Under the pieces are notes generated by a model that saw nothing but the letters and a program-made list of their open reading frames with translations, searched no databases and was not told the origin of the DNA. The translations under genes were made by a program, and so were the position numbers. 28,351 bases of DNA from a virus: positions 1 through 28,351 of IMG/VR virus record IMGVR_UViG_3300027782_000016. The stretch is one strand, 5' to 3'. Positions 2,821 to 22,195 of the stretch are shown one piece after another. How positions within the stretch are numbered: the stretch's first letter is position 1; each line of letters begins with the position of its first letter.

Positions 2821-3220
2821 TCCTAATATAGAAATAAAGAAGTGGTTTTATACTAACTTGACAAGCTCAAGTGCATTGCCTGTTTACGATGGTATTGCAC
2901 CTGATAATGCACCTAATGAGTATATCATTATGAGTGGCAGAACTTCTAATCAGGATCAAGGTAAAATCAGCTATACTAACTCGGTTACACTTGATGTTGA
3001 CATTGTCATAAAAAATAGTAACTTTGGTTATAAAAGAGCCGAAACGATAAGCGATTTAATACTAAATGCAATCAATTCAGACACGGATATTACCCTTGCA
3101 AATGGGTTTTATGCTTCAAGTTTGGTGGTAGGTGCAATTAGAAATTTAGATGGTTTAAACCCTTTGGACAACGTATTTAGAACAATAATAACTTATAATT
3201 TAATAATAACTCAAAATTAA
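2813..3220 (+). CDS. Tail terminator/completion protein (DUF3168-like)
   Basis: This 135-residue protein probably caps the growing tail tube and joins it to the head. The region PVYDGIAPDNAPNEYIIMSG matches the typical N-terminal pattern (P.Y....P.....PYI..g) of DUF3168-like tail completion proteins. It is followed by strands with VTLDVDIVIKN and a helix for which AETISDLILNAI is characteristic. The C-terminal strands NVFRTIITYNLII fit the last conserved segment. It sits immediately before the tail tube gene, as expected. Confidence 0.78.
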   Translation: MLNPNIEIKKWFYTNLTSSSALPVYDGIAPDNAPNEYIIMSGRTSNQDQGKISYTNSVTLDVDIVIKNSNFGYKRAETISDLILNAINSDTDITLANGFYASSLVVGAIRNLDGLNPLDNVFRTIITYNLIITQN

Positions 3221-3226
3221 AATAAA

Positions 3227-3676
3227 ATGGCAGAAACAAAAGTAAGCGGTAGGGATTATATCCTTTTAGCTGACATAGACAACGATGGTACTTTTAAACC
3301 AGTTGCTTGTCTAACTACAAACTCATTGACATCAACTAACGACACTATTGATGCAACTTCTAAGTGTGGTAATCAATACCAACCTAGTCCAGTATTTTCT
3401 CAATCTTTTGATTGTGAAGGATTTGCGATTGATGAAACAGGTACTCCAAGTAAAGATAGCTACCAACAATTGTATGCTGCTCACGCTGCTAAGACTTTGT
3501 TTGCTATTAAAATGGGTAAAGCAACTCCAACTTCTGGAGATATTACTTATGGTGGTGTTGGTTCATTAGTATTTATTAGTGATTTTGGAGTACAAGCAGA
3601 TGATGCAGATGATGTTAAATTTACTGCAACATTCGTAGTAAGTGTTCCACCAATTACACAAACTGAAACTGTATAA
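3227..3676 (+). CDS. Major tail (tube) protein
   Basis: This 149-residue protein forms the stacked rings of the tail tube. It resembles TP901-1-type major tail proteins: an N-terminal strand GRDYILLADIDNDG, then a segment from CLTTNSLTSTNDTIDATSKC with the conserved switch from a beta strand to a D/T-rich loop, and a C-terminal strand pair VKFTATFVVSV. The position between tail terminator and tail chaperones supports the call. A related tube-like domain occurs a second time in the gene at 8018. Confidence 0.85.
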   Translation: MAETKVSGRDYILLADIDNDGTFKPVACLTTNSLTSTNDTIDATSKCGNQYQPSPVFSQSFDCEGFAIDETGTPSKDSYQQLYAAHAAKTLFAIKMGKATPTSGDITYGGVGSLVFISDFGVQADDADDVKFTATFVVSVPPITQTETV

Positions 3677-19600: not shown

Positions 19601-19795
19601 ATGAGCCAAAACAAACAAATAGCAGACTACCTAAACAAAGGTAAAAAGCTAACTACTCTTGATGCATTAACTAAATTCGGATGCTTTAGATTAGCAGCCA
19701 GAATATCTGATCTAAGGAATGATGGAATGAATATAACAACTAAGATTATTAAGCTAGAGAATAACAAGCAGGTTGCACAATATTCAATAAAATGA
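19601..19795 (+). CDS. Small helix-turn-helix protein
   Basis: This 64-residue protein has the pattern LTTLDALTKFGCFRLAARIS followed by DLRNDGMNITTKII, as in phage winged-helix proteins (HTH_39-like), in which the second helix reads DNA. It overlaps the methyltransferase start by 4 nt (ATGA at 19792-19795), so the two are coupled. It might regulate the early genes or act with the methyltransferase. Confidence 0.72.
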   Translation: MSQNKQIADYLNKGKKLTTLDALTKFGCFRLAARISDLRNDGMNITTKIIKLENNKQVAQYSIK

Positions 19796-20823
19796 CACAC
19801 GCATCATTATTTAGTGGAATAGGTGGGTTTGACTTAGCAGCCGAATGGATAGGATGGGATAATATATTTCATTGCGAATGGAATCCTTTTGGTCAAAGAG
19901 TTTTAGCCCACCATTTCCCAAATTCAAAATCTTACAATGACATTACCAAAACAGACTTCTCAATTCACGCAGGGCAAATTGATGTTCTTACAGGCGGGTT
20001 CCCTTGCCAACCCTATTCAAGTGCAGGAAAAAGACTTGGGAAAGCCGATGAAAGACATCTCTTTCCACATATGTTGCGCTGCATTAAAGAAGTCAAACCC
20101 AGATGGGTTATTGGCGAAAATGTTCGTGGACTTGTTAATTGGAATGAAGGGATGGTATTCAACGAGGTGTATGATGACTTGGAAAGGGAAGGATATGAAG
20201 TACAATCGTTTCTTATTCCAGCTGCAGGTGTCAATGCGCCACACCAACGATATAGAATCTGGTTTGTTGCTTACTCCAACTACAATGGAGCAAGTTCAAG
20301 ATTTGAACAAGTTTCAAAAGAGAATGGAAAAGTATCCGAATGGAACAAAAATGCCGAATCTGGCAACGCAAATTCATTCATTACTTCCGACACCAACAAC
20401 AAGAAGCGATACAGGGAGATCAACAACAATGGAGAATGGCAAAATAAAGAACAAAAGTCATACAACTGGAACAAATTACGGAATAACATTGGGTCAACTG
20501 GCAAGAGCAAAGATGTTACCAACTCCGAACAGTTTCGATTGGAACACAGCCAGAAGCGAAGAAACATTACAGAAAGCGAAAGAAAGACACAAGGAAAAGG
20601 GAGTAGTTTTAAAAACCAGTTTGAGACAAATGGCTGGTCAAGGTTTCCAACTCAATCCCCAATTTGTGGGGGAGATGATGGGCTTCCCAGAGAACTGGAC
20701 AACATTACCTTTCCTAAATGGCGAAAAGAATCAATCAAAGCATACGGAAACGCAATAGTTCCTCAGGTAGCTTATGAGATATTTAAAACAGTACAAAGTT
20801 TTGAGGATTTGGTAAATGTTTAG
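19792..20823 (+). CDS. DNA cytosine-5 methyltransferase
   Basis: This 343-residue protein has the ordered C5 methyltransferase motifs: FSGIGGFD (motif I, residues 7-14), GGFPCQPYSSAGK with catalytic Cys72 (motif IV), GENVRGL (VI, 108-114), QRYRIWFVA (VIII, 152-160) and, near the C-terminus, WRKESIKAYGNAIVPQVAYEI (IX/X, ending at 330). It would methylate DNA at C5 of cytosine, perhaps protecting the phage from host restriction. Residues about 166-280, where the target recognition domain should be, are rich in Asn/Ser/Lys and low in hydrophobics. The same stretch of DNA encodes a protein-like product in the +1 frame, which may explain the unusual composition. No cognate restriction enzyme is seen. 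Confidence 0.88.
   Translation: MTHASLFSGIGGFDLAAEWIGWDNIFHCEWNPFGQRVLAHHFPNSKSYNDITKTDFSIHAGQIDVLTGGFPCQPYSSAGKRLGKADERHLFPHMLRCIKEVKPRWVIGENVRGLVNWNEGMVFNEVYDDLEREGYEVQSFLIPAAGVNAPHQRYRIWFVAYSNYNGASSRFEQVSKENGKVSEWNKNAESGNANSFITSDTNNKKRYREINNNGEWQNKEQKSYNWNKLRNNIGSTGKSKDVTNSEQFRLEHSQKRRNITESERKTQGKGSSFKNQFETNGWSRFPTQSPICGGDDGLPRELDNITFPKWRKESIKAYGNAIVPQVAYEIFKTVQSFEDLVNV
19937..20758 (+). CDS. Overlapping +1-frame ORF inside the methyltransferase gene
   Basis: A 273-codon frame lies wholly inside the methyltransferase gene, shifted by +1. It has features of a real protein: WYSTRCMMTWK (residues 73-83), RFLFQLQVSMR (91-101), three spaced repeats LLTPTT (111-116), LLPTPTT (149-155) and MLPTPNS (193-199), each opening a 40-residue block, then LNPQFVGEMMGFPENW (239-254). 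I recognise this motif set from phage proteins often annotated next to or within methyltransferases, where the end reads LNPxxVxxxMGFPxxW. How it is made (own start, frameshift) is unknown; ATG 19937 is only the most upstream candidate, with later ATGs available. It could instead be a chance frame, but 822 nt free of stops is long for AT-rich DNA. Confidence 0.5.
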   Translation: MTLPKQTSQFTQGKLMFLQAGSLANPIQVQEKDLGKPMKDISFHICCAALKKSNPDGLLAKMFVDLLIGMKGWYSTRCMMTWKGKDMKYNRFLFQLQVSMRHTNDIESGLLLTPTTMEQVQDLNKFQKRMEKYPNGTKMPNLATQIHSLLPTPTTRSDTGRSTTMENGKIKNKSHTTGTNYGITLGQLARAKMLPTPNSFDWNTARSEETLQKAKERHKEKGVVLKTSLRQMAGQGFQLNPQFVGEMMGFPENWTTLPFLNGEKNQSKHTETQ

Positions 20824-20831
20824 TAAATTTG
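20800..20831 (+). promoter_or_regulatory. Promoter TTTG-N20-TAAATTTG
   Basis: TTTG (20800-20803) and TAAATTTG (20824-20831) are 20 nt apart, a full match to the Bacteroidota -33/-7 consensus. The -7 box begins directly after the methyltransferase stop codon. Transcription should start near 20835-20838, at the base of the first leader hairpin. Confidence 0.68.
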
Positions 20832-20835
20832 TAAC

Positions 20836-20917
20836 GAGTGTCGGATACTCATTAAGAACTTATTGCCCTTGCGATGAACTACCAATCCGACTGGTAGGGA
20901 TTCAATGGGGCTTTTTT
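20836..20917 (+). ncRNA. Structured leader or small RNA with kissing loops and terminator-like end
   Basis: Hairpin 1 is GAGT/ACTC (20836-20839 with 20847-20850), loop GTCGGAT. Hairpin 2 is CTACCA/TGGTAG (20879-20884 with 20892-20897), loop ATCCGAC. The two 7-nt loops are perfect reverse complements and could kiss. Hairpin 2 is extended below by TGAA/TTCA (20875-20878 with 20901-20904) and GCCC/GGGC plus a T-G pair (20865-20869 with 20907-20911), and six T follow (20912-20917). The whole lies between a consensus promoter and ATG 20923. It could be an attenuator or riboswitch, a put-like antitermination RNA, or an independent small RNA of about 80 nt. I cannot match it to a named family. Confidence 0.62.
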
Positions 20918-20922
20918 ATTTT

Positions 20923-21573
20923 ATGGCTAAAGACCCTGCTTTTTTATTTTACCCCAATGATTACATAGGTGGTACTATGGGTATGACCTTTGAGGAAAAA
21001 GGTGCATACATAGAAATTTTAATGCTTCAGTTTAATCGAGGTCATATGACCTCACATATGATAGGTCAACTCATAGGTCAACTATGGGAATCTATCAGGT
21101 GCAAATTTGTTCAAGATGAGCAAGGTTTATGGTATAATATCCGTTTAGATCAAGAAAAAGATAAAAGAATGTCGTTTACTCAGTCTAGAAGGAATAATAT
21201 TAAAGGACTTAACCAACATACGATAGGTCATATGACCTCACATATGGAAGATGTAAATGAAGATGTAAATAGAAATATAAATAAAGTTAAAATTGTAGAT
21301 ACTCAGTTTGAGGAATTTTGGGATTTATACGATTATAAGAAATCTAGGGATAAAGCAGAAAAGGCTTGGAAAACTTTAAATAAAGAGGAAAAGGCTTTAG
21401 CTTTACAACACGCACCAGTATATGCTCAATCTACCCCTGATAAACAATTCCGTAAACATCCTACAACCTATTTAAACAGTAAATCTTTTAACGATGAAAT
21501 TATTGAACGAACTATTAGTACAAAACTTAGCTACGCAGAACTTGAATGGGAACGACTTAAAAATCTTGGATAA
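20923..21573 (+). CDS. DUF1376-like putative replication protein
   Basis: The preferred start is ATG 20923 (MAKDPAFLFYPNDY, 216 residues); an in-frame ATG at 20905 lies inside the terminator-like stem of the leader. The N-terminal domain (FYPNDYIGGTMGMTFEEKGAYIEI region, residues about 8-40) resembles DUF1376/YdaU-like proteins found at phage replication loci. The C-terminal domain has FEEFWDLYDYKKSRDKAEKAW and a HPTTYLNSKSF motif (about 131-193), as in phage replisome organisers where it may contact DNA or the helicase loader. The middle contains two GHMTSHM repeats encoded by a palindromic DNA repeat. It lacks an ATPase motif. It would direct the host replication machinery to the phage (inferred). 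Confidence 0.72.
   Translation: MAKDPAFLFYPNDYIGGTMGMTFEEKGAYIEILMLQFNRGHMTSHMIGQLIGQLWESIRCKFVQDEQGLWYNIRLDQEKDKRMSFTQSRRNNIKGLNQHTIGHMTSHMEDVNEDVNRNINKVKIVDTQFEEFWDLYDYKKSRDKAEKAWKTLNKEEKALALQHAPVYAQSTPDKQFRKHPTTYLNSKSFNDEIIERTISTKLSYAELEWERLKNLG
21038..21246. repeat. Palindromic repeat cluster inside the replication gene (candidate origin)
   Basis: A 22-bp sequence starting with the palindrome AGGTCATATGACCT and continuing CACATATG occurs identically at 21039-21060 and 21225-21246. The first palindrome extends to 16 bp (GAGGTCATATGACCTC, 21038-21053). Directly after it ATAGGTCAACT is repeated at 21061-21071 and 21073-21083 (period 12). That gives six AGGTCA half-sites in about 200 bp. Iterons inside a replication-initiator gene are the lambda O arrangement, so this is an origin candidate. 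Confidence 0.55.
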
Positions 21574-22195
21574 GGATGAACTAAAGGTTTATAAGGCTAT
21601 GGAATCTATGCACATAGGCAAATGCTCAAGGATAGAAGTAACCGAGCATTTAAAGACTTGTATTGCTTTGAGTGGTATGCAAGTACCAACAAATCAAATA
21701 TTTAATCTATGCGTTTCCTTTACAATAGAATCTTACGGACAATATAAACTAAAGGAATTAGGAGTAGCATTTAAGATGTTTGCAGAGGATAAGTTTACTA
21801 TTGGCAATCATATAAACTTTAGCCCTAAGTTAATTGGCGAGGTAATGAATGCCTATAAAAAGATAGCAGTACAAGTAAGAAACAAAATAGAACCAGAACA
21901 ACCTAAACAAATAGAAATGCAAGTAGATGAAGAACAAGTAATGCGAGAGGAAGCCGAGTATTGGAAAACATCTAAAAAGGACTGGCGATTCCTAAACTAT
22001 CAATGCTTTGATTACCTATGGAAACGGAAGCTACTAAAGATAACCCCTGATAAAGCTGAGTACATAAAATCTAAAGTAAAAGCCTACCATTTGGCACAGG
22101 CTAAGAAGCCAGAGGATATGTTAGTAGATGAGGAAACTATGAGGCAGCAATGTAAAAAATATTCCCTTAAACTTTATTACGATAACGAATTATGA
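21566..22195 (+). CDS. Unknown protein, possible replication partner
   Basis: The frame ends at 22195. TTG 21566 (8-nt overlap with the preceding gene) gives 209 residues and is preferred, because codons between 21574 and 21599 look coding (DELKVYKAM); ATG 21599 or ATG 21494 (80-nt overlap) are alternatives. The protein is helical: residues about 10-100 form a globular part with CSRIEVTEHLKTCIALSG and ESYGQYKLKELGVAFKMFAE, like DUF6633-type proteins of Bacteroidota phages. Residues about 130-200 are charged with EEAEYWKTSKKDWRFLNYQC. Its place after the DUF1376-like gene suggests a helper in replication, but no motif proves it. Confidence 0.65.
   Translation: MDKDELKVYKAMESMHIGKCSRIEVTEHLKTCIALSGMQVPTNQIFNLCVSFTIESYGQYKLKELGVAFKMFAEDKFTIGNHINFSPKLIGEVMNAYKKIAVQVRNKIEPEQPKQIEMQVDEEQVMREEAEYWKTSKKDWRFLNYQCFDYLWKRKLLKITPDKAEYIKSKVKAYHLAQAKKPEDMLVDEETMRQQCKKYSLKLYYDNEL

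Follow-up and report, generated by a model that had tools for sequence, protein, structure and literature searches.

The locus at positions 19792–20823 of a viral genome very probably represents an overprinted, two-subunit C5-cytosine methyltransferase, in which dual-frame coding with separate translation starts, rather than frameshifting, yields a large chain, alpha, and a second chain, beta, that is read in the +1 frame of the same DNA. Both frames are under selection, the start of beta and its +1 linkage to alpha are conserved, and the motif contents of the two products are complementary. The locus makes a strong example of extended dual coding on one strand; because its two products probably form halves of a single enzyme, the constraint can be probed with a simple methylation assay. 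The source record, the entire 28,351 bases of which constitute the window analyzed here, is that of a virus, and the reading of its ORFs gives capsid, tail, terminase and portal genes; a search for RNA families over the same stretch found none. A limited search of the open-access literature turned up no description of either this overprinted layout of phage methyltransferases or a module array in a hidden frame. The features of the locus are the following.

19792–20823, plus strand: alpha, large subunit of the C5-cytosine methyltransferase, 343 aa, motifs I–VIII and X (PF00145, E = 5.7e-50)
19804–19836, plus strand: alpha motif I (SLFSGIGGFDL), seen in the sequence and conserved in the alignment
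19937–20758, plus strand: beta, probable second subunit in the +1 frame, 273 aa, with the ATG at alpha codon 48/49 (phrog_1008, E = 2.4e-22)
19993–20019, plus strand: alpha motif IV including the catalytic PCQ (GGFPCQPYS), seen in the sequence and conserved in two alignments
20113–20130, plus strand: alpha motif VI (GENVRG), seen in the sequence and conserved in alignments
20153–20224, plus strand: conserved segment of beta, WYSTRCMMTWKGKDMKYNRFLFQL, over which the codon choice of alpha is locked (beta W, S, C, W, R and L each in 47 of 47)
20239–20271, plus strand: alpha motif VIII (PHQRYRIWFVA), seen in the sequence and conserved in alignments
20267–20383, plus strand: beta module 1, class A (LLTPTT...), 39 aa
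20284–20631, plus strand: alpha spacer, residues 165–280, low complexity, predicted to be disordered (pLDDT <35; substitution phase that of beta; 0 alpha stops compared with ~430 expected)
20384–20515, plus strand: beta module 2, class E (LPTPTT...), 44 aa
20516–20650, plus strand: beta module 3, class C (LPTPNSFDWN...), 45 aa
20651–20701, plus strand: motif-IX-like segment of beta, LNPQFVGEMMGFPENWT, near-invariant in 133 beta sequences, with the canonical motif IX spacing
20731–20772, plus strand: alpha motif X (SIKAYGNAIVPQVA), seen in the sequence, conserved, and a confident helix in the model

The preliminary description of this region reported a +1 ORF inside the methyltransferase gene, and its coordinates, 19937–20758 (273 aa), are exact. 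The motifs quoted there, namely, WYSTRCMMTWK, RFLFQL, three L-[PT]TP repeats at intervals of about 40 residues and LNPQFVGEMMGFPENW, are all present, and the DNA is indeed less AT-rich than its surroundings, with the GC fraction of 0.39–0.41 over 20001–21000, compared with mostly 0.28–0.37 elsewhere in the window. The Asn/Ser/Lys-rich stretch noticed in alpha (residues ~165–280) was recovered as well, together with predicted disorder.

At the level of sequence, the +1 ORF behaves as a genuine second gene. When the synonymous codons of alpha are redrawn, 20,000 times from the usage of the other genes of the phage and 20,000 times by permuting the codons of alpha itself, the longest +1 open stretch has the median length of 60 codons and the maximum of 186 in the former case, and reaches at most 248 codons in the latter. 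The real +1 frame is open for 283 codons, a length attained in 0 of the 40,000 redraws, and the real +2 frame for only 46. Stops were also counted in 47 non-redundant relatives, with the expectation for the beta frame derived from the alpha protein and the codon usage of the phages. Upstream of the beta start (codons 2–47), the beta frame contains 103 stops vs 90 expected; downstream, there are 0 compared with 82 expected in codons 49–78, 0 compared with 131 in codons 79–110 and 0 compared with 161 in codons 111–160. Over codons 49–160, the +1 frame thus has 0 stops (~374 expected) and the +2 frame has 432. The reciprocal test gives the same picture: given the beta protein, 0 alpha-frame stops are observed in the variable region vs ~430 expected. 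Owing to the shared ancestry of the 47 relatives, these counts do not represent independent trials, the third positions of alpha being nevertheless highly variable there.

The pattern of substitutions points in the same direction. Over codons 161–300 (20272–20691), the substitutions relative to the window sequence peak at alpha position 1, i.e. position 3 of beta, with the rates at alpha positions 1/2/3 of 0.37/0.23/0.17 and 0.29/0.17/0.18; before codon 160 and after the stop of beta, the peak is at alpha codon position 3. Within the conserved segment of beta, the codons of alpha are locked in all 47 relatives: at residue 121, alpha varies between L, M and V, but each codon ends in TG (beta W in 47 of 47); F123 is encoded solely by TTC (beta S), V126 by GTG (beta C) and A144 by GCT (beta L); L130 uses TTG or CTG and no other codon (beta W); and at residue 139, where alpha has P, S or A, every codon ends in CG (beta R). 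The ATG of beta is found in 47 of the 47 relatives, at codon 49 in 42 of these and at codon 48 in the remaining 5, and the asparagine at alpha codon 49 is always encoded by AAT, never by AAC. This conservation of the ATG and of the AAT codon places the start of beta at 19937 and favors separate initiation over frameshifting. No Shine–Dalgarno sequence is evident by eye before 19937, and the same seems to hold for other genes in this phage. The +1 frame stays open even in homologues with 25–35% identity. Collectively, the stops, the phase flip, the locked codons and the redraws indicate selection on both frames and lend strong support to the overprinted gene that the preliminary description had put forward.

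Beta matches PHROG 1008 (‘DNA methyltransferase’; E = 2.4e-22, residues 16–258), with all 73 aligned members matching; searches against Pfam, NCBIfam, PADLOC and PDB sequences yielded no credible match. A tblastn search with beta hits 56 phage records and 3 plasmids, and pattern scans yield 143 such coding regions from IMG/VR and 104 from bacterial genomes, with 80 of each set retained, numbers that, like all family counts given here, rest on pattern-based searches and sampled genomes, with an over-representation of close viral contigs. Among the viral loci, the rule is a beta that lies at +1 of alpha, the N- and C-terminal parts of which share a single open frame; there are three exceptions (L034, L068 and L069). 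Among the 80 genome loci, 58 are at +1 and one is at +2 (L141, where alpha is apparently frame-disrupted), the rest being cut by contig ends or not recognized by the pattern. In phrog_1008 searches of sampled genomes, hits came from 27 of 398 for the phylum to which a Burkholderiaceae bin belongs, from 3 of 296 for that of a Flavobacterium and from 4 of 299 for that of a Bacillota bin; wherever both parts could be placed, the arrangement is +1. A search of 80 viral loci that starts from alpha alone finds the beta-type motif at +1 in 63, at +2 in two and in frame in none. Mycobacterium phage Rialto and Sulfitobacter phage phiGT1 show the +1 layout as well, and the beta homologue in Paenibacillus phage Diva is annotated ‘g49 internal gene’; the searched passages of a paper on 48 P. 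larvae phage genomes do not mention the overlap.

Thus, nearly every assignable beta locus, across Bacteroidota, Bacillota, Pseudomonadota, actinophages and viromes, is at +1 of a C5 methyltransferase. Neither a stand-alone beta nor an in-frame fusion was found in the 80 genome loci, 36 loci from ~990 sampled genomes and the 80 viral loci found through alpha, some of which could not be assigned or end at a contig edge. The preliminary description regarded the absence of stand-alone relatives of the +1 product as refuting the second gene; the absence is real in this sample but does not refute overprinting because homologues exist, each overlapping a methyltransferase. In six Bacteroides loci (L082, L135, L136, L150, L152 and L154, in genomes and a B. 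finegoldii plasmid), alpha has TGA where the relatives have tryptophan (AAE-W-MGW, R-W-RQ), and beta is open; these codons could reflect decaying alpha genes, edited DNA or TGA read as Trp.

Alpha is the predicted catalytic chain. It contains motifs I, IV (PCQ), VI (ENV), VIII and X and matches PF00145 and TIGR00675; its structural model is confident over most of residues 1–160 and the motif X helix, with disorder over ~165–320, and the modeled catalytic domain matches M.HaeIII and M.HhaI over ~165 columns. When the alpha profile is compared with six single-chain phage enzymes, the alignment stops at residue 172 (E = 1.3e-29). Motif IX and the target-recognition domain (TRD) are missing from this chain, as is the small domain; residues 165–280 are, instead, of low complexity, predicted to be disordered, and evolve in the phase of beta. 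This spacer is the unavoidable out-of-frame reading of the DNA for the beta modules, and alpha must stay open across it because motif X lies beyond. The asparagine/serine-rich linker, in the window as well as in related phage methyltransferases, is thereby explained as what results when the DNA for the putative recognition subunit is read out of frame, which suggests that predictions of specificity made from the annotated frame alone would rest on the wrong sequence.

The missing motif IX probably resides in beta. Comparison of the beta profile with the same six single-chain phage enzymes gives one match, an ungapped alignment of 17 columns between QLNPQFVGEMMGFPENW and the canonical motif IX KLTPRECWRLQGFPDWA, the score of which is not statistically significant on its own. 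The segment conforms, with few exceptions, to the consensus L-N/S-P-x-F-V-x-E-M-M-G-F-P-x-x-W-T in 133 distinct beta sequences, and its spacing is that of canonical motif IX. The preliminary description had the methyltransferase frame closed by motifs IX and X; this holds for motif X, but the motif-IX-like segment sits in the +1 frame. In L205, L206 and Streptomyces phage Euratis (L294, gp33/gp34), alpha terminates shortly past motif VIII, and motif X follows motif IX in the beta frame, a position that supports the identity of the segment as motif IX; the overlapping genes of this family, then, come in more than one layout. With the motifs split over two proteins, the set is complete only when alpha and beta are taken together. 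The AlphaFold model of beta is poor (pLDDT 59, pTM 0.26), and with this model, Foldseek and VIA-align found nothing above background, an uninformative outcome that does not speak for a new fold.

Beta carries one to five modules in the interval that separates its conserved segment (WYSTRC...TWK...FLFQL) from motif IX, with the L-x-T-P signature at the start and the median length of 39 residues. The 169 modules in 62 distinct arrays fall into 36 classes at the threshold of 60% identity. The array of the window is A-E-C, three modules, and the relatives have A-B-E-C, A-B-E-G, A-E-G, A-B-G, A-C, E-C, A-B-H, P-Q-B-F or F alone. Different arrays are carried by phages whose alpha catalytic domains are 93–99% identical; conversely, class C modules that are 96% identical are found with alpha domains that are only 78% identical. 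Gains, losses and exchanges of modules all leave both frames open. Judging from these sequence patterns, the modules are putative TRDs. The idea, voiced in the preliminary description, that the +1 frame changes target recognition is plausible, given that this frame carries variable modules and a motif-IX-like segment, but does not hold in the form of a frameshift-made C-terminus. At slightly less than even likelihood, each LPTP module would be a TRD of its own, and the +1 frame would be a combinatorial, cassette-shuffled specificity array, with modules gained, lost and swapped while the frames stay intact, giving rise to multi-target enzymes that track host restriction, and with this dual-frame design present in a large share of the phage C5 methyltransferases for which current annotation covers only a single frame. 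If the modules map to targets, the array would amount to a readable code for C5 methyltransferase specificity.

The two-subunit interpretation stems from the lack of motif IX and the small domain in alpha, the presence in beta of a segment with motif IX spacing, and the +1 linkage, which recurs in phages, in plasmids and across genomes from several phyla. Under this scenario, ribosomes would most likely start on alpha at 19792 and, in a separate initiation event, on beta at the ATG at 19937. Alpha would supply the AdoMet-binding and catalytic domain (motifs I–VIII) and motif X, connected by the disordered spacer, and beta would supply motif IX and the variable LPTP module array, which probably recognizes the target. 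The two chains would join via the surfaces that link the two lobes of a single-chain enzyme, producing the equivalent of an ordinary C5 methyltransferase, and the complex would methylate the phage DNA, most likely as protection from host restriction. We infer, then, that beta is expressed and assembles with alpha, and that target recognition and an anti-restriction role belong to the function of the pair.

Three alternatives were considered. Amino acid and codon bias can produce long spurious frames, so that the +1 frame might be open by chance and make nothing, but with none of the 40,000 redraws as long, 0 stops at +1 against 432 at +2 in the 47 relatives, the flip of the substitution phase and openness kept at 25–35% identity, the probability of this explanation is vanishingly small, and it is refuted at the sequence level. 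A programmed +1 frameshift inside the methyltransferase gene, which would fuse motifs I–VIII to the module array and motif IX and so yield an alternative specificity, has the appeal that the modules start just past motif VIII, such that a shift there gives the canonical order (I–VIII, TRD, IX), and that in a few loci with G-runs (L034, L068 and L069), an indel joins the alpha N-terminus to the beta frame. However, a shift at codon ~120–160 requires no open +1 frame upstream, yet codons 49–110 contain 0 stops against ~213 expected, and the ATG at codon 48/49 is retained in 47 of 47 relatives, far upstream of any useful shift point; furthermore, the window has no long G-run, no conserved slippery site was seen there, and the shifted product would lack motif X. 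The frameshift-made alternative C-terminus envisaged in the preliminary description is therefore unsupported, and as the main explanation, a programmed frameshift, which we consider quite improbable, is rejected by the locked codons and the open upstream +1 frame.

There is similarly little probability that beta, although genuinely overprinted, has a function unrelated to methylation, for example, that of a restriction inhibitor or a regulator. Such a role would fit the lack of a characterized homologue and of Pfam or PDB matches, but in the loci examined, beta never occurs apart from an overlapping C5 methyltransferase, it carries exactly what alpha lacks, some relatives have motif X shifted to the beta frame, and two-chain enzymes have a precedent in the literature (PMC3404938).

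A close parallel to the proposed two-subunit enzyme is M.EcoHK31I, the small chain of which is also encoded out of frame inside the large-chain gene; in the window, likewise, the second chain lies in another frame inside the first gene, here 19937–20758, at +1. Two-chain C5 methyltransferases are represented by M.AquI and M.EcoHK31I, and artificially split enzymes are active as well (PMC3404938). The large chain of M.EcoHK31I (YGGCCR) contains motifs I–VIII and X and the predicted TRD, whereas the small chain contributes only motif IX (PMC3404938). By this description, the window has the same partition, i.e. two chains with motif X in the large one and motif IX, predicted here with a weak profile score, in the small one, but differs in that the variable modules are in the frame of the small chain rather than a predicted TRD in the large chain; a shuffled module array does not figure in that description of M.EcoHK31I. 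Given that the alpha linker is an out-of-frame shadow of the beta modules, the TRD assignment in M.EcoHK31I may deserve a second look. In M.AquI (CYCGRG), the catalytic part and the part with recognition and motif IX are on separate chains (PMC3404938); unlike that enzyme, where the small chain carries both IX and X, the window has motif X in alpha, and it is L205, L206 and phage Euratis, with motif X in the beta frame together with IX, that come closer to M.AquI. The multispecific C5 methyltransferases of Bacillus phages (SPR, phi3T, H2 and others) contain tandem TRDs (PMC8936443) and resemble the locus described here in being phage-borne and in having tandem variable modules (~39 aa and putatively involved in recognition in the present case) before motif IX; in contrast to these single-chain, one-frame enzymes, the array is in an overlapping +1 gene, apart from the catalytic domain. 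The beta homologues in PHROG 1008 and Paenibacillus phage Diva (‘g49 internal gene’) overlap a methyltransferase at +1, are ~28% identical to the beta of the window and are annotated only as ‘DNA methyltransferase’ or hypothetical.

Several loci show additional peculiarities of frame. A run of 9–11 G at alpha codons 117–120 joins the alpha N-terminus to the beta frame in L034 (~1324–1385) and in L068 and L069 (~3174–3235 in both), and several other loci have a G10–12 run at the same codons that is in frame; these runs could reflect phase variation, slippage or assembly error. In L259 (2001–3300), three different frames are occupied, one by motifs I–VIII, one by the WPTP modules together with motif X and one by motif IX, probably due to an indel near a G-run. 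In the window itself, the two ORFs directly downstream of the methyltransferase, 20905–21573 and 21494–22195, share 80 bases in different frames.
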